Of a DNA stretch of 43,447 bases, positions 3,212 through 43,447 are shown one piece after another. The number at the start of each line of letters is the position of its first letter. Within the stretch, counting starts at the first letter, position 1. Source of the stretch: Nitrososphaerota archaeon (lineage in GTDB: Archaea > Thermoproteota > Nitrososphaeria > Nitrososphaerales > Nitrosopumilaceae); assembly GCA_028867615.1 (NCBI GenBank), contig JAGWGC010000002.1:1-43447 (forward strand). The letters run 5' to 3'. The position numbers were made by a program, and so were the translations under genes. The notes below the pieces were generated by a model. The model was not told the DNA's origin, did no database searches, and saw only the letters and a program-made list of their open reading frames with translations.

Positions 3212-4236
3212 TTTGCGGTAATAATTACCATTTTAAAGGATGTATTTTGTTTCAGACTTTTAGCAAACTTTTCCAACTCCTTGGGACCATCCATGGCCAC
3301 TATTCTGAGAGGTTGCCCTTCCTCTGGCTCCAAAAATTTCAGATATTTCGGAGGCAGTGCAAACAAGGGTTGGCCATCCCCGTCCTCTAATTTCATTATG
3401 TCGTTTTCAGAGTCAAGTCTAACGTTGGAAACCTTGTGAGTTTTTGTATCAAGTAGCATGTCACGCCCACATTTGCAGTGAACAAGGCCGTTATACGGAG
3501 AGCCTCTAATCAGGTTCTCTGCCTCTTTTTTGTCTGGTTTGCCCCATTCTTCCCCAGGTCCAGTTTTGGGTTCAAATATGATCATGTCTTTTTCTTTGTT
3601 TCCTTGTATCAGGGAAGACAGGATTACTTCAAGTGCAGGAGGTGCAGGGAAGACAAATTTATTGCTCTTCAGATTGCGCATGGAATCAAGTATGACAACT
3701 GTTGCGTCAAGCTGCTCTTTCTCCGTAGAAAATTCAGTAATTTGTTCTATCACATGTATTGGGAGGTCTACGTTTGGATGTCTCACACAGGCTTCAATTA
3801 AAAATTCATCCCATGCAAGACGAACTTTTGGGTGCAGTGTTTTTTTGGCAAGTTCCACATATCGTTTATCAACTGAGGATGCCGCGTTATGTTTTTCAAG
3901 ATAATGTACTGCATCTGCCATCTTCAATGGGTTGATTGAGCCATGAATGTTAAGATCGAGATGCAGTTTGACAACATCGGCAATTGATTTTACTGTAACA
4001 AACCAGGCATTTAGAGAATCCTTCCCGGCATTTTCAAAAGATTTTACACGCAGATCGCCATTTGCTACATATTGTTCAGAACCAAGAACGGCGACTATGA
4101 TTGGTTCAATTTTATCAGGGTTTGATCTTGCCACCTGTGTAAGGTCTTTTAACATTTTTCCAGTATGTATTGTGACCTTTACAGGACACGGCTTGAGTTT
4201 GGAAATATTTGCCAGACCCTCTTCATATGTGGACAT
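3208..4236 (-). CDS. ParB/Srx-fold N-terminal domain-like protein
   Basis: 342-aa ORF; VANGDLRVKSFENAG...WFVTVKSIADVVKLHLDLNIHGSINPLKMADAV resembles the ParB nuclease-like region (G-x-x-R followed by a helical segment). Confidence 0.6.
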   Translation of the reverse strand: MSTYEEGLANISKLKPCPVKVTIHTGKMLKDLTQVARSNPDKIEPIIVAVLGSEQYVANGDLRVKSFENAGKDSLNAWFVTVKSIADVVKLHLDLNIHGSINPLKMADAVHYLEKHNAASSVDKRYVELAKKTLHPKVRLAWDEFLIEACVRHPNVDLPIHVIEQITEFSTEKEQLDATVVILDSMRNLKSNKFVFPAPPALEVILSSLIQGNKEKDMIIFEPKTGPGEEWGKPDKKEAENLIRGSPYNGLVHCKCGRDMLLDTKTHKVSNVRLDSENDIMKLEDGDGQPLFALPPKYLKFLEPEEGQPLRIVAMDGPKELEKFAKSLKQNTSFKMVIITAK

Positions 4237-5065
4237 TTAATGTAGCACCCTCCAATGCAAGATCCAAAGCACGTTGCGCTCTGGTGTTTTCCCTCAAGTC
4301 TGAGATGAATTGTAAATTGTCAATTGCCTTTCGTTCTATTTTTTGATAGAGCAAACCATCGCCGATTTTTTCGCGTAATTGTACAAGAAGGATTCGCATA
4401 TAGTAATTGCACTTGTCATAGGCACATACAATTCCAAGGCTTTCAGCAATAACTCTATTCAATGAATATGTCTTAAAAATAGTAAACGTGCGTTTCATTC
4501 CAAAATTCATCTTGATTGCCTCAATTATTTGTGCATCAGACCTTGGGAGGCCATACTTTCTACATGACAAATGCACTGCAAATGCTACAATATGCGCTTT
4601 AGTGCATCCCTTTGGCTTGGTTCTTTTCAGAATAGCAACACTCTCTTCTTTTTCCAGGCCTTTTGCTACCAGATCTAAGAGTTGTTTTAGTTTCTCAGCA
4701 TATGCCTTTTTTTCCTGCTGCTTGCGTTTTGAGAGTTTTTGATATACAATGTTAATGTCTTGTGCAGCATAGATTGGAAGATCTAGTTTTACACAGACAT
4801 TTGATATCTGGGATACATCAGATTTGTTTTCACGAATATGTCTTGCAAATTCAAGATTCACCTTTTTGCATCCCACTTCAGCAATCTGGTACAGGTTTAG
4901 TTTGGAGCTTGAAACTATCTCTTGTAATTGGTAATCATGCCCAAGTACAATTCCACATTTGTTGCAACAAATCTCATTATCCATGACACATAAACTGAGT
5001 TTGTTACATCTTGGACATTTGTTGTTCATCACATTGTAACTTGTTAGATCCTGTCTTTGGCTCAA
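4223..5065 (-). CDS. Divergent transcription initiation factor TFB (TFIIB-like)
   Basis: 280-aa ORF; N-terminal zinc ribbon CPRCNKLSLCVMDNEICCNKCGIVLG, then helical cyclin-like repeats (KAHIVAFAVHLSCRKYGLPRSDAQI). Confidence 0.75.
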   Translation of the reverse strand: MSQRQDLTSYNVMNNKCPRCNKLSLCVMDNEICCNKCGIVLGHDYQLQEIVSSSKLNLYQIAEVGCKKVNLEFARHIRENKSDVSQISNVCVKLDLPIYAAQDINIVYQKLSKRKQQEKKAYAEKLKQLLDLVAKGLEKEESVAILKRTKPKGCTKAHIVAFAVHLSCRKYGLPRSDAQIIEAIKMNFGMKRTFTIFKTYSLNRVIAESLGIVCAYDKCNYYMRILLVQLREKIGDGLLYQKIERKAIDNLQFISDLRENTRAQRALDLALEGATLNVHI

Positions 5066-6868: not shown

Positions 6869-7585
6869 TTATATAGTATTCAATAATTGTTTTATCTTCT
6901 CATACAATTGAAGAAATTCTTTGGAGCGACTTATTTTTCTAAATTTAAGGTATTGTTTCAGGTAGGGATGGGATGCATAATTTTTGACATCTGAGATATC
7001 AACATCATACTTTAAAATAAAAATAATTGAATAGTAATCAAGCCATCCTAATGTTAGATAATAATATGCCAAGTCTTTCCTATCTTGTACATTTGAAAAA
7101 TAAATTGAAAGTGTAGACCAATCAGTTTTCCAATTCACATAAAAGCAGGCATTTTTTATTTCTCCTAATTTTGCATACATATCCTCTAAGATTTGTAATT
7201 GTTTAATTGCATGGGTACGAGATATGTTTGATTTTTTTATTCGTGGAAGGTTTTCAAATTCACCTTCTGCCATTTTTTCAATTTGTTGTTTCGAATCCTT
7301 TTGAATTTTAGTTAATTTTGCAATATGCATACCTCTTTTTGTAGTTATCTCAGACCAATCATTTGATTCTATTATTGCACCCTCTTTGATATGATCTAGA
7401 ATTATAGAAAGTTTGGTGGTTTCTTCTGTAGCAAGAATAGATAATGCCAGAGATTCATTAAATTGTGTAGCATCAAATAGAATCTGACTAGACTTTAAAA
7501 GATCATTTACTTTATGTTGACATTCATTAAATCCTTCATGAAGTTTTTCTTTAGGAATTGAAACAATTTTAGAAGTCTTTGTCAT
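6869..7585 (-). CDS. AbiV-family (HEPN-like) abortive-infection protein
   Basis: 238-aa helical protein; FNESLALSILATEETTKLSIILDH and YVNWKTDWSTLS resemble AbiV-family proteins. Confidence 0.55.
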   Translation of the reverse strand: MTKTSKIVSIPKEKLHEGFNECQHKVNDLLKSSQILFDATQFNESLALSILATEETTKLSIILDHIKEGAIIESNDWSEITTKRGMHIAKLTKIQKDSKQQIEKMAEGEFENLPRIKKSNISRTHAIKQLQILEDMYAKLGEIKNACFYVNWKTDWSTLSIYFSNVQDRKDLAYYYLTLGWLDYYSIIFILKYDVDISDVKNYASHPYLKQYLKFRKISRSKEFLQLYEKIKQLLNTI

Positions 7586-7907
7586 TCAAATTCCCTTATT
7601 AATTTCAAGAATAAAACAATGTTGCTTATCTATATGATTACAGATTATGTTGTGGATTTCATAATTTCATTTATCCTAGGATCGTTGCAAACTGGAGGAT
7701 TTCATAAAAACCACATTGTTGTTGTAGCAGTAGAATAGATTGTTTACAGTTTGCAAGGCCAATCCCAGTCATTCCTATGAATTCCATGACTCTAGTTTAT
7801 TAAAAAACGGATACTGGTTATCAAAGTTGAGAGTCATTGGTATCATATGTGATAATCAACGCAGTCCGTAATTACCAAGAGCAGGAAATCTATTCGGATG
7901 ATAGTAC

Positions 7908-8141
7908 ATGTACAAATTCAAAATGGTTACTAGTTGTAAACCATCCTTGGATGAAATGTGGGAATTTATAGACAACATTATGCGTCCTAATGAATTGGTT
8001 CCTGACAAAACAATTCTTACTTATGAACAAGTACATGCAATATATTCAAAGTTATCTGAAATTGATGAAATGTTCAAAGAGTTTGTACAGATTAACATTT
8101 TGAAAAAAGAACTGTATAAACTAGATAACAATTCGAAATAA
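7908..8141 (+). CDS. Small hypothetical protein
   Basis: 77-aa ORF, charged, no recognised domain. Confidence 0.4.
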   Translation: MYKFKMVTSCKPSLDEMWEFIDNIMRPNELVPDKTILTYEQVHAIYSKLSEIDEMFKEFVQINILKKELYKLDNNSK

Positions 8142-8160
8142 AAATTTGGACACTAGTCAG

Positions 8161-8399
8161 ATGAGATACGATTCATCACACATCAGTATTTTTTACAAGA
8201 TAGTGCATTATGTTGCAGGAGAGATCAATAAAATAAAACCTAGGCCCAAAATTGTTTTAATTACTGAAGCCCGACAGCAGAAGTTATAGTGGAATTAAAC
8301 AACCTTACCGTTGACGCGATAATTTGCAAATCAGTAGATATTGAAAAAGTGATTTCATTGATAAGAAAACTAACTTTCAGTCTAGTGCAAAGCACATAA
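8161..8399 (+). pseudogene. Degraded response-regulator C-terminal fragment
   Basis: Frame 1: MRYDSSHISIFYKIVHYVAGEINKIKPRPKIVLITEARQQKL*; shifted frame: VELNNLTVDAIICKSVDIEKVISLIRKLTFSLVQST*. Together these resemble a receiver domain from beta4 to alpha5. Confidence 0.45.
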
Positions 8400-31922: not shown

Positions 31923-32322
31923 TCATCATGTTATTTCGACCTGATAACCTTGCTCATCACCATAGCTACGTTAGATCTATCAAATGGCTTTATCACATAG
32001 TCTCTTGCGCCTGATTTTATCGCATCCTGTACGATGTGCTTTTGCTCAACTGATGTAACCATGATTACCTTGGCTCTCGGATTAAATCGAATAATTGTCT
32101 TGAGGGCTTGTATTCCATCTGCCTTGGGCATGTTCACATCCATTGTTACTATGTCAGGCTTGAATTGCTTGTAGGCCTCAACTGCTGCAAGGCCATCACC
32201 TGCCTCATATATTTGAGATACCAATCCGTGTGATACTAGTATATCTTTCAGTACAACTCTCATAAATGATGCATCATCCACAATCAGTACTTTGACTGCA
32301 CTAGTTGTAGACATGTTATGTC
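31923..32322 (-). repeat. 400-bp perfect direct repeat, copy 1 (cheY plus flanks)
   Basis: Line-by-line comparison shows identity to 36665-37064 at offset 4742. Confidence 0.97.
31931..32314 (-). CDS. cheY: Chemotaxis response regulator CheY, copy 1
   Basis: MSTTSAVKVLIVDDASFMRVVLKDIL...DIVTMDVNMPKADG; identical to the 36673..37056 protein. The MWGHN extension in the track lies mostly outside the repeat and is probably spurious. Confidence 0.92.
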   Translation of the reverse strand: MSTTSAVKVLIVDDASFMRVVLKDILVSHGLVSQIYEAGDGLAAVEAYKQFKPDIVTMDVNMPKADGIQALKTIIRFNPRAKVIMVTSVEQKHIVQDAIKSGARDYVIKPFDRSNVAMVMSKVIRSK

Positions 32323-35611: not shown

Positions 35612-36671
35612 TTTGTCTTACCGCCTTGATAATTTCATGTGCCAGATCATCAGCATCAACCATTCTGTCAACAGCGTGCAGATCATTAGCAGCTTTTGCC
35701 ATGCCAAATACTACAGACGATGATTCGTTTTGAGCCAGTGTGAAACCACATCTCTTCTTTATCATCTTCATTCCAAAGGCACCATCTTGTCCCATTCCCG
35801 ACAACAATACTCCTACAGTACTTGCACCAAAAACCTCGGATGCGGAAACCATTGTTACATTTACTGCCGGTCTTACACCAAATCTTTTTGGTCCACGATC
35901 TAGTGTGATTTGCCTAGACGGAGAGACCATCATGTGTATATCCCCCGGAGCAAGTAGTACCGTTCCTTCCATTATTTTATCGCCCTCTGCAGCTTCTTTT
36001 ACCTGCAATTTGGAAATTGTGCCAAGTCTTTGAGCAAAAGTTGATATAAATTCTTTATTCATGTGCTGCACAATCAAGAAGCCAGCATGTATATCTCCAG
36101 GAATATCTTTTAGGATGCTGGATATTATGCGCGGTGCACCAGTTGATGCACCTATTACGACGACTGTTGAAGCCATACCTTCTGTTACAGTATTTGTATT
36201 TTTAGACGGTCTTATCTTTGAAATCGCTTTAGGAATCAGAATATCCCTATTAGAACGAGATGCGACCTCTATTTTGGATAATAATGTACCTTTAAGTTTT
36301 TCAACTACGTTTGATTCATCATGAGGTATTGAAATAAAATCAACTGCACCAAGTTCTAATGAATCTAGAATTAATTTGGCATTAGAGGGATTGTAATTAC
36401 TGACAACGATGATGCGCAAATTTTTTTCTGGCCAAAGATTTATGTTTTCAATAAAAGACAATCCATCCATATTTGGCATTTCCATGTCTAGAAGAATGAT
36501 ATCTGGCGAGGCATGTCGTAGTTTTCTTAATGCCTCAAGTCCGTCTCGAGCTGTTTCTATTATTTTGATATGTCGTTCAGAAGATAGAAGATCACTTAGA
36601 AGAGATATCATGTAAGAAGAGTCATTTACTATCATCACGCTTATCTGATTTTTCTCAGATGTGGTCATCAT
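35604..36671 (-). CDS. cheB: Chemotaxis methylesterase CheB
   Basis: Receiver domain plus VVVIGASTGAPRIISSIL, HAGFLIVQHM, GVLLSGMGQDGAFGM. Confidence 0.95.
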   Translation of the reverse strand: MMTTSEKNQISVMIVNDSSYMISLLSDLLSSERHIKIIETARDGLEALRKLRHASPDIILLDMEMPNMDGLSFIENINLWPEKNLRIIVVSNYNPSNAKLILDSLELGAVDFISIPHDESNVVEKLKGTLLSKIEVASRSNRDILIPKAISKIRPSKNTNTVTEGMASTVVVIGASTGAPRIISSILKDIPGDIHAGFLIVQHMNKEFISTFAQRLGTISKLQVKEAAEGDKIMEGTVLLAPGDIHMMVSPSRQITLDRGPKRFGVRPAVNVTMVSASEVFGASTVGVLLSGMGQDGAFGMKMIKKRCGFTLAQNESSSVVFGMAKAANDLHAVDRMVDADDLAHEIIKAVRQNV

Positions 36672-37064
36672 GTTATTTCGACCTGATAACCTTGCTCATC
36701 ACCATAGCTACGTTAGATCTATCAAATGGCTTTATCACATAGTCTCTTGCGCCTGATTTTATCGCATCCTGTACGATGTGCTTTTGCTCAACTGATGTAA
36801 CCATGATTACCTTGGCTCTCGGATTAAATCGAATAATTGTCTTGAGGGCTTGTATTCCATCTGCCTTGGGCATGTTCACATCCATTGTTACTATGTCAGG
36901 CTTGAATTGCTTGTAGGCCTCAACTGCTGCAAGGCCATCACCTGCCTCATATATTTGAGATACCAATCCGTGTGATACTAGTATATCTTTCAGTACAACT
37001 CTCATAAATGATGCATCATCCACAATCAGTACTTTGACTGCACTAGTTGTAGACATGTTATGTC
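36665..37064 (-). repeat. 400-bp perfect direct repeat, copy 2 (cheY plus flanks)
   Basis: Identical to 31923-32322. Confidence 0.97.
36673..37056 (-). CDS. cheY: Chemotaxis response regulator CheY, copy 2 (inside cheW-cheY-cheB)
   Basis: Identical to copy 1; one base separates its stop codon from the cheB ATG (TAA-C-ATG). Confidence 0.95.
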   Translation of the reverse strand: MSTTSAVKVLIVDDASFMRVVLKDILVSHGLVSQIYEAGDGLAAVEAYKQFKPDIVTMDVNMPKADGIQALKTIIRFNPRAKVIMVTSVEQKHIVQDAIKSGARDYVIKPFDRSNVAMVMSKVIRSK

Positions 37065-38996: not shown

Positions 38997-39296
38997 TTAA
39001 AATTCAGAATTGGAATTTTCAGTTTTCCTGTTTGCACCTACAAGTTTTTTTCTAAGTTCTTCTTCAACCTCTGTTGCCCGAAGTTTTGAGAAAACTATAT
39101 CATGCAACAACCCTACATCATGTCTTGCCAGTGCACGCTCTTCTAGTTTTAATAATTCCTTCTTGACATATCCGATGTGTGAGAGCCCCCAGCGATACCC
39201 ATCTGCTTTGCTCAAGGGTTCAAAATCTTGCATTCTTACAACATTCCAAATGTCATCAGACTGGTTATCGTTTGGTATATTATTCATGATTATCAA
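38997..39296 (-). CDS. Small hypothetical protein in the chemotaxis operon
   Basis: 99 aa; charged, helical: DIWNVVRMQDFEPLSKADGYRWGLSHIGYVKKELLKLEERALARHDVGLLHDIVFSKLRATEVEEELRKKL. Confidence 0.6.
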   Translation of the reverse strand: MIIMNNIPNDNQSDDIWNVVRMQDFEPLSKADGYRWGLSHIGYVKKELLKLEERALARHDVGLLHDIVFSKLRATEVEEELRKKLVGANRKTENSNSEF

Positions 39297-40742: not shown

Positions 40743-41480
40743 TTGTTGATAATACTACCTAACACAATCCCAAAAACAATGAACTTGGCAGTAAGAAGCA
40801 GAAAGACTCGTAGAGGAGTCATCGGTATAGAGTCTGCAATAGTTATGATAGCATTCGTAATCGTTGCTGCGGCTTTAGCCTTTGTCGTTCTCAACATGGG
40901 TTTTTCAACAACACAAAAGGCAAAGACAGCAATTACATCATCTGTCGTAGAAGCAAGTAGTGCACTTGAGATTTCAGGCAAAGTAACCGGATTTGGAGAT
41001 ATTGCACATTCTCAACTCAATGCCACCGTGATACCGCTCAAGGTAGCAGGGGGCGGAGACGCAGTAAGTCTTGATCCTGCTTTGACAGACATCAAGTATT
41101 ACAGCAATACTGTAAGATATGACAACATCTTTGGAGTAGGTTGTGCGTTAGGAAGTCGTGGAAATATCATCAACGCTTCCGGTGCAGTAGCAGCCGGCAT
41201 GATTGGAAAGGCATGCATAGACCATGATCCTCTTACCAATCTGGGAGACAATCAATATCCAAACAGTACCAAAGCAATGATCTATTGGGATGTCAATGCA
41301 AACAACAACAACATACTTGACCAGGGTGAACATGCAAACTTGGTAATTGTTTACAAGAATGGTGACCAACCAAAACAACTAGACAATGTCAAGGCCGAAG
41401 TCATAGTACCAACTGGTTCTGCATTGACTGTAGAAAGACAGGTGCCAGCAATTACAACAACAACTGTGGACCTAGGGTAG
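40743..41480 (+). CDS. arlB: Archaellin (start possibly ATG at 40782)
   Basis: SRKTRRG|VIGIESAIVMIAFVIVAAALAFVVLNMGF is a class III signal peptide followed by the archaellin hydrophobic helix. Confidence 0.85.
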   Translation: MLIILPNTIPKTMNLAVRSRKTRRGVIGIESAIVMIAFVIVAAALAFVVLNMGFSTTQKAKTAITSSVVEASSALEISGKVTGFGDIAHSQLNATVIPLKVAGGGDAVSLDPALTDIKYYSNTVRYDNIFGVGCALGSRGNIINASGAVAAGMIGKACIDHDPLTNLGDNQYPNSTKAMIYWDVNANNNNILDQGEHANLVIVYKNGDQPKQLDNVKAEVIVPTGSALTVERQVPAITTTTVDLG

Positions 41481-41492
41481 GTAGAATATGAT

Positions 41493-42701
41493 TTGAAGAT
41501 CATCATATCAAATCCACTCTTTTTGATAACAAGGTTATCTAGTAAAACACGAATATTTGCAACAATCAGCACAATGGCATGCTATGGCTTATTCCTCTAC
41601 GAACTTTTGCCAGAATATCTATTTAGTTTTCCCACATCAATATACTATTTTGTAATTCCAGTTGCGATAATTGCAATAATACTTGTAGGCATTCCAAAAT
41701 TTACTGCAAAGAAGATGCCCGATCAAGACTTGAACCAAGGAGTAGAACAAGCGGCATCTCCAATTGAAAGTGTTTCTTTTGAAGCGCCAAAACAAGAAAG
41801 TGGCATGATCATGACAAATAACATTCCTGGAGGGATAATGTCAGACATAATCATGCCTTCGCCTGCATCACCGGGTGAGACTATGATTTCTCCATCTATG
41901 ACAAATCCAGTAGTTGATGAAAATGTCTTAAATGACATGGTAACACGTGCTGTGGATCCATTTCAAAGAGAGTTAGTAAGAATGCAAGATACAGTAAGTG
42001 ATGTAAAAGCTGAAATCAACTCAATTCGAGGTACAATTCAAGATCTGACACTGACATTTGAAACATCATTGACTGATCTCAAGGCGTTTCAGACAGAGAT
42101 AGCAAACCCCCTCAATTTTATGCGTAAATATTTTGATTCCATCGATATCAAGGGGTTATCAGATCCAACACTTCCGCTTCATGCAGATCAGTCACCAATG
42201 CATATTGTAAACAATGCAGAAAATTCCATGCCAAATAATCCAGACCAACAATCAGAATCTAGTCAAACCGTGGTAACAAACAGCAGTTTACCTACAACAG
42301 CTACGAAACAAACAGAGGAAGTTCAACCAAAACAAGAGTTGCAAGAATCAATTCCATTCACCCAATTGTTCAACGGCAGTCTCACTCTTGGCAAACTCAT
42401 GACAACGACTACAATATTGGAAGAAATTCTTCAAACAGTAGACAGAAGCTCGATTGACATTTTAATAGAGCAATGCAAGTTGATGGGTCTCAGGCAAGAA
42501 GATGAGCGAGTCATATACAACATCATCAGTTTGATGGACCAATCAGGATTATCAGTCAAAGAGATACTCATAATGCTATACAAGTTTGGCAAAGTCATGG
42601 GCATAGCAGACAAGGAGGCAGATTTGACATATGCAAAACTTATGATGAATCAAGGCAAGCCACAGGGTTCGCTTGTTACAGTGGAATCAAAGGTGAAATA
42701 G
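41493..42701 (+). CDS. Membrane/coiled-coil protein in the arlX position of the archaellum operon
   Basis: 402 aa; two hydrophobic segments (~25-75), a low-complexity linker, coiled coil VRMQDTVSDVKAEINSIRGTIQDLTLTFETSLTDLK, C-terminal helical domain; between arlB and arlG. Confidence 0.7.
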   Translation: MKIIISNPLFLITRLSSKTRIFATISTMACYGLFLYELLPEYLFSFPTSIYYFVIPVAIIAIILVGIPKFTAKKMPDQDLNQGVEQAASPIESVSFEAPKQESGMIMTNNIPGGIMSDIIMPSPASPGETMISPSMTNPVVDENVLNDMVTRAVDPFQRELVRMQDTVSDVKAEINSIRGTIQDLTLTFETSLTDLKAFQTEIANPLNFMRKYFDSIDIKGLSDPTLPLHADQSPMHIVNNAENSMPNNPDQQSESSQTVVTNSSLPTTATKQTEEVQPKQELQESIPFTQLFNGSLTLGKLMTTTTILEEILQTVDRSSIDILIEQCKLMGLRQEDERVIYNIISLMDQSGLSVKEILIMLYKFGKVMGIADKEADLTYAKLMMNQGKPQGSLVTVESKVK

Positions 42702-43169
42702 ATGGGTTCAGCAGTATTTACAGAAGCAATTCTCATCGTAGCATCGGTTATCATAGCTGCTGGCCTTGCAGGGGTAGTTATGACAAAGGTAGGTACATTC
42801 CAATCCACTTTTACCCAGACAACTGAGAACCAGAAACAGACCATACTGACAAACATCAAAATCATTTATGCACAGAATTCAACATCTACAAGCGTAAGCG
42901 CATGGGTGAAAAATATTGGGACGTATTCAATTACTAATACACAGAACATTGATGTGTATTTTGGACAAACTGGTGCAATGCAGAGAATTCCATACAATGC
43001 AGGATCACCATCTTGGACATTTTCTAGTCCAGTAACTAGTTGGGACAAGGCAAATACCGTACAGATCAACCTTTCAAATTTATCAGCCATTCAATGTAGT
43101 AGTGTATACGAGTTACAAGTAACAACACCAAACGGCGTTAGCGATGAATACTTCGCTACATTCTGCTAG
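42702..43169 (+). CDS. arlG: Archaellum stator-type protein ArlG (FlaG)
   Basis: GSAVFTEAILIVASVIIAAGLAGVVMTKVG N-terminal helix; beta-rich C-terminal domain. Confidence 0.75.
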   Translation: MGSAVFTEAILIVASVIIAAGLAGVVMTKVGTFQSTFTQTTENQKQTILTNIKIIYAQNSTSTSVSAWVKNIGTYSITNTQNIDVYFGQTGAMQRIPYNAGSPSWTFSSPVTSWDKANTVQINLSNLSAIQCSSVYELQVTTPNGVSDEYFATFC

Positions 43170-43179
43170 GTGATATACT

Positions 43180-43447
43180 GTGGGATTAAGTATTGCAATC
43201 TCTGGCGGAATTGTCACCTTTGCCATAGTATATGCCATGATGTCATTTCCTGCAATACTTGATGATACTACAAAGGTGAGTGCATCTTCAACACAGATGT
43301 CAAGCACACTTAATTCAATTCTGCACACAAACATCAATCTTTCAAATTTACAAAATGTAAGCGGTAGCAGTACTGTTAATTTTTCAATAAATAATACTGG
43401 AAATACCATATTGTGGAATTACAACAAGTTTGACGCAATAGTTACAT
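43180..43447 (+). CDS. arlF: Archaellum protein ArlF (FlaF), truncated by the window end, GTG start
   Basis: Manual translation VGLSIAISGGIVTFAIVYAMMSFPAILDDTTKVSASSTQMSSTLNSILHTNINLSNLQNVSGSSTVNFSINNTGNTILWNYNKFDAIVT...; follows arlG. Confidence 0.7.
   Translation, partial: MGLSIAISGGIVTFAIVYAMMSFPAILDDTTKVSASSTQMSSTLNSILHTNINLSNLQNVSGSSTVNFSINNTGNTILWNYNKFDAIVT

Follow-up and report, generated by a model that had tools for sequence, protein, structure and literature searches.

The window, that is, the whole 43,447-nucleotide stretch of DNA analysed here, comes from a Nitrosotalea-type genome, whose named relatives include Candidatus Nitrosotalea devanaterra, and carries a run of archaellum (arl) genes on its forward strand. 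An archaellin gene, arlB (40743..41480, +; PF01917, 6.7e-22), is followed by the gene of interest, assigned below to the ring family (ArlCDE/ArlX superfamily; 41493..42701, +; 402 aa, TTG start), by arlG, a stator-type archaellin homologue that begins straight after the stop codon of the 402-aa gene (42702..43169, +; PF01917, 5.2e-12, and synteny), and by arlF (43180..43446, +), which is truncated at the contig end. The latter has no Pfam match of its own and was recognized by its position and by a start similar to that of arlF in G006, a complete genome of the same genus. The 402-aa reading frame is free of internal stops, and the minus strand over the same stretch is interrupted by them. Its TTG is supported as the start codon because the G006 homologue begins at the same residue with ATG (MKI) and at the same 12-base spacing after arlB. 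The assembly of the window's own genome reaches 77% completeness, with the contig stopping inside arlF, and the downstream order was taken from G006, where it reads arlB, the homologue of the 402-aa gene, arlG, arlF, arlH, arlI, arlJ; no arlCDE lies downstream of the gene in that complete genome. The other operons examined share the order arlB-[gene]-arlG-arlF-arlH, then arlI/arlJ. Open reading frame calls, the Pfam assignments of the flanks and G006 synteny agree on the placement proposed in the first-pass annotation, namely the arlX position within an arlB - gene - arlG - arlF order. Two further features of arl operons were recorded: G006 has tandem near-identical archaellin genes with a cupredoxin-like 331-aa gene in between (L033:1598-7021), and in G057 a 793-aa reading frame with an arlF-like N-terminus (L036:9623-12004, -) is found in the operon between arlF and arlH, reading in the opposite direction.

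The 402-aa protein comprises, in order, a membrane hairpin, a disordered linker, a coiled coil of ~62 residues, an NPLNFMRKYF segment, a second linker and a five-helix C-terminal domain. The predicted hairpin (residues 17-73; 41541..41711, +) is defined by hydropathy, with a strong transmembrane segment at ~49-69 and a weaker one at ~20-40, and by AlphaFold helices at 17-38 and 46-73; both of its ends are predicted to be cytoplasmic. The linkers, residues 74-142 and ~217-298, are disordered in the AlphaFold model, and between them stand the coiled coil (residues 143-204; 41919..42104, +), modelled as a helix with pLDDT ~79-94, and a short helix at residues 206-216. The C-terminal domain (residues 299-387; 42387..42653, +), when modelled by itself, is predicted well, with a pLDDT of 84.2 and a pTM of 0.73, whereas the full-length model has a pTM of 0.28, so that the mutual placement of the parts carries no meaning. 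The earlier description of a membrane anchor, linker, coiled coil and folded helical C-terminal domain is thus borne out by hydropathy and AlphaFold. Foldseek searches of the PDB with the full and C-terminal models, and of BFVD with the C-terminal model, gave no match with E < 0.5, and a sequence-profile search of the PDB returned weak matches of the coiled-coil type only. In two genomes one reading frame encodes the membrane hairpin and the next one the coiled-coil body (L040:3326-3745 and 3742-4803; L099:7123-7500 and 7502-8353); either the gene is genuinely split there or its linker contains a frameshift. The ring protein of G345 is without a membrane segment, and in that genome a 94-aa protein with two hydrophobic segments is encoded between arlB and the ring gene (L084:1136-1420) and is possibly a separate anchor.

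Homologues were found by protein search in 33 of 151 relatives, with E-values down to 2e-233 and identities of 25-90%, and a second collection contributed 33 loci in Nitrosotalea, Nitrosopumilus, Nitrosotenuis, Nitrosarchaeum, Nitrosocaldus, Nitrosothermus and Nitrososphaera-type genomes. In an alignment of 28 members the conserved core is the end of the coiled coil together with the NPLNFMRKYF...SDP segment, and the C-terminal domain also has conserved positions. The core motif, NPLNFMRKYFDSIDIKGLSDPTLPL (residues 205-229; 42105..42179, +), is invariant or nearly invariant at N205, P206, N208, F209, M210, R211, K212, Y213, S223, D224, P225 and L229.

The window protein falls under every curated Pfam and NCBIfam cut-off. 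With PF04659, the Arch_fla_DE family of ArlCDE-type proteins (cut-off 21 bits), it has no match at E<=10, and in none of 24 genomes searched did a match exceed the cut-off; together with the G006 operon this accords with the claim that canonical ArlCDE is lacking here. A genome search with PF05377 (FlaC) was discarded as too promiscuous, since it matched coiled coils in 35/35 genomes and in 13/14 controls, and TolA_bind_tri and similar Pfam matches were set aside as coiled-coil noise. The relationship emerges from profile comparisons with other Thermoproteota, which have two intermediate groups and one Arch_fla_DE group of such proteins, mostly encoded in the arlB-?-arlG slot or immediately before arlG, with the exception of G343, in which the ring-type gene precedes arlH. 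The Arch_fla_DE comparison group consists solely of Thermoproteota PF04659 proteins. Aligned by hhalign, the segment comprising the coiled coil and NP motif matches this group at 96.8% (reversed control 35.9%) and the two intermediate groups at 95.5% and 94.7%, and decoys cut from MCP and CheA score no higher than 11.8% with the window family profile. The C-terminal domain matches its nearest intermediates at 97.2%; to the Arch_fla_DE group it aligns directly at 12%, and at 81.5% with a pooled profile of the intermediates that was made post hoc, after the single-family comparison had yielded only 12% (helical decoys <=2.4%). In G101, a genome from the window's order but from another family, the gene before arlG encodes a soluble 212-aa protein with no membrane anchor, which matches both the window family (8.1e-7) and, below threshold, Arch_fla_DE.

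The type of ring protein follows the phylogeny of the motor ATPase. When 24 ArlI sequences are placed on a tree, every ring-protein type corresponds to a single clade, with four changes, the minimum possible, and none of 200 shuffles scored as low; ring protein and motor ATPase are thus inherited together. The ArlI of G101, on a long branch, clusters with the Arch_fla_DE type, though G101 shares the order of the window genome. These results leave very little room for the reading in which an unrelated accessory protein sits in the operon by chance. Such a reading would suit a protein below all curated cut-offs and without a fold match, but the slot is constant across divergent Thermoproteota, the motif is almost invariant, ring types match ArlI clades, and the profile links stand well above the decoys, so that this alternative is largely refuted and merits hardly any credence.

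The second ring protein with which the family invites comparison is crenarchaeal ArlX (PF24151), which assembles into a 30-nm ring and binds both ArlI and ArlH. The window protein scores 13.3 bits against the ArlX cut-off of 28.7 bits, and all members of the family fall below it; ArlX is nevertheless the Pfam family matched by most members (18/28 homologues at E<=1, best 1.5e-5). The coiled-coil segment aligns with ArlX at 67.3% (reversed 3.8%), a link that is modest in its direct form because MCP and CheA decoy slices reach 45.7% with the ArlX profile; over the same segment the intermediates align with ArlX at 91-94%. No such match extends to the C-terminal domain, which aligns with the ArlX C-terminus at 0.3%. 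Like ArlX, the window protein is encoded in the arlB-arlG slot, has an N-terminal membrane segment and a cytoplasmic coiled coil, and ends that coil with an NP/SP motif. Unlike ArlX, which has one membrane helix, it has two predicted ones, its C-terminal sequence is unrelated, and its family has much longer linkers and co-occurs with chemotaxis genes. It might still be argued, from the shared slot, the N-terminal membrane segment and the similarity of the coil to PF24151, that the gene is a direct orthologue of ArlX with an added C-terminal extension. That reading is disfavoured and we regard it as improbable: every member lies under the ArlX cut-off, the C-termini are unmatched, the coil is nearer the Arch_fla_DE group, and the ArlI proteins of the ArlX group and of the window family form separate clades. 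The comparison with ArlX and ArlC/D/E profiles that the first-pass annotation had proposed accordingly upholds a relationship of the ArlC/D/E type, leaving the link to ArlX weaker and confined to the coiled-coil segment.

Taken as a whole, the gene is probably best explained as a divergent, membrane-tethered thaumarchaeal member of the ArlCDE/ArlX ring superfamily, and we hold this with considerable confidence. Its claimed status as an archaellum ring-family component agrees with the profile comparisons, which put the protein with ArlC/D/E-type proteins and more weakly with ArlX. Judged from sequence, it joins an anchor resembling that of ArlX, one of the two known ring types, to a body related to the other (ArlCDE). 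With euryarchaeal-type ArlC/D/E (PF04659, PF05377) it shares the succession of coil, NP motif and helical C-terminal domain; it differs from them in that it is one polypeptide, equipped with a membrane anchor and a pair of long linkers, and scores under the Pfam cut-offs. ArlC/D/E are soluble and without a membrane segment, whereas the window protein has its strong hydrophobic segment at 49-69, and their known partner CheF is absent from the 24 genomes tested. The homology of ArlX and ArlCDE was left undecided in one review (PMC9087265); the window family and the intermediates lend support to a common ancestry of the two, at least for the part comprising the coiled coil and NP motif.

The assignment itself is not new. 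Makarova et al. 2016 (PMC4858521), in the portion on which we draw, describe a thaumarchaeal 'unknown gene' of the arl operon as a divergent FlaC/D/E counterpart by HHpred; it is likewise a single extra gene of the operon with the same superfamily assignment, and the window gene family is very probably the same. As late as 2022 a review (PMC8978795) counted the counterpart of ArlX/ArlCDE in thaumarchaea among the components awaiting identification. The claim that this component had gone unidentified thus holds as far as that review is concerned, and does not hold against the HHpred assignment in the 2016 text. That portion of Makarova et al. gives no domain architecture, membrane anchor, che link or CheF absence. 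New in this analysis are the arrangement of the domains, a membrane anchor attached to a body related to ArlCDE, the intermediates from Thermoproteota, and the lack of CheF. That ammonia-oxidising archaea have a ring/switch-type protein of their own bears on how archaeal swimming motors are assembled and steered.

A ring function has been described for ArlX (PMC8978795) and a switch function for ArlCDE (PMC9126983), and by position and homology a ring or scaffold role is likely for the window protein. The hydrophobic hairpin would tether the protein so that both ends lie on the cytoplasmic side of the membrane, and a flexible linker would lead to the coiled coil, through which the protein likely multimerises to surround ArlH and ArlI as a ring or cage. 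Contact with the motor core would most likely be made by the NPLNFMRKYF segment that ends the coil. The five-helix C-terminal domain, the putative counterpart of the ArlD/E domain, would be carried on the second flexible linker at the cytoplasmic face, and in che species without ArlCDE and CheF the CheY signal may reach the motor there.

Whether such a protein also takes part in switching turns on its relation to chemotaxis. In euryarchaea CheF connects CheY to ArlCDE, the docking site (PMC9126983). No CheF (PF04283) was detected in any of 24 genomes tested, 23 of them with the gene, so that in the chemotactic ammonia-oxidising archaea tested, which have neither CheF nor canonical ArlCDE, the route from CheY to the motor is a puzzle, and the window protein is the first place to look. 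A CheW domain occurs in 30 of 32 genomes with the gene and in 8 of 119 others (Fisher p 5e-22, kinship between genomes ignored); one of the eight, G064, in fact carries a divergent family member. This co-occurrence may only reflect joint loss of motility; since motility and chemotaxis genes are lost together and kinship is ignored, it argues but weakly for a specific link. CheW-domain matches are lacking in the genomes of the closest relatives of the C-terminal domain (G345, G295) and in those of the next intermediate group (G160, G222, G210, G279, G333, G346), and the domain is therefore not specific to chemotactic species, since che-less archaea share it. In two chemotactic Nitrosopumilus-type genomes, moreover, the C-terminal domain is degenerate; in these (L134:895-2274, -; L117:3522-4814, +), where che genes are present, the second linker holds long low-complexity repeats (VVQEP, APAQDA).

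These last observations favour a reading in which the protein is a scaffold only, an ArlX-like membrane-anchored ring with no switching part, with CheY acting at ArlH, ArlI or some adaptor; ArlX, too, functions without chemotaxis (PMC8978795). Against it stand the related ArlCDE of euryarchaea, which are the docking site (PMC9126983), and the fact that no alternative docking candidate was found in these genomes, from which CheF and canonical ArlCDE are absent. We regard the scaffold-only reading as a serious contender, a little short of an even chance. A switch-docking role for the window protein is plausible, whether CheY would bind it directly or by way of an adaptor in place of CheF, and the C-terminal domain would be the best single candidate site for the CheY signal in che species without ArlCDE and CheF. 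The fullest version of the proposal, that one membrane-tethered protein would be both motor ring and chemotaxis switch, receiving CheY-P without CheF, and that ArlX and ArlCDE would be one family in which anchor and C-terminal domain have been gained or lost, is offered tentatively and is on balance unlikely.

Two further observations concern other genes of the window. The 99-aa protein encoded at 38997-39296 (-) belongs to a conserved family with invariant P-S, DGY and WGL positions, which 12 of the 34 genomes tested encode; all 12 are of the Nitrosopumilaceae type (the window's GTDB family), and wherever its surroundings were seen che genes lay nearby. It had been put forward as a partner of the 402-aa protein, but is absent from Nitrosocaldaceae- and Nitrososphaeraceae-type genomes having both che and arl; this absence rules it out as a general CheY adaptor. 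Finally, a 400-bp exact DNA repeat lies in two CheY genes (31923-32322 and 36665-37064), whose proteins are identical over 127 aa; the repeat may have arisen by recent duplication or by gene conversion, or may be an assembly artefact.
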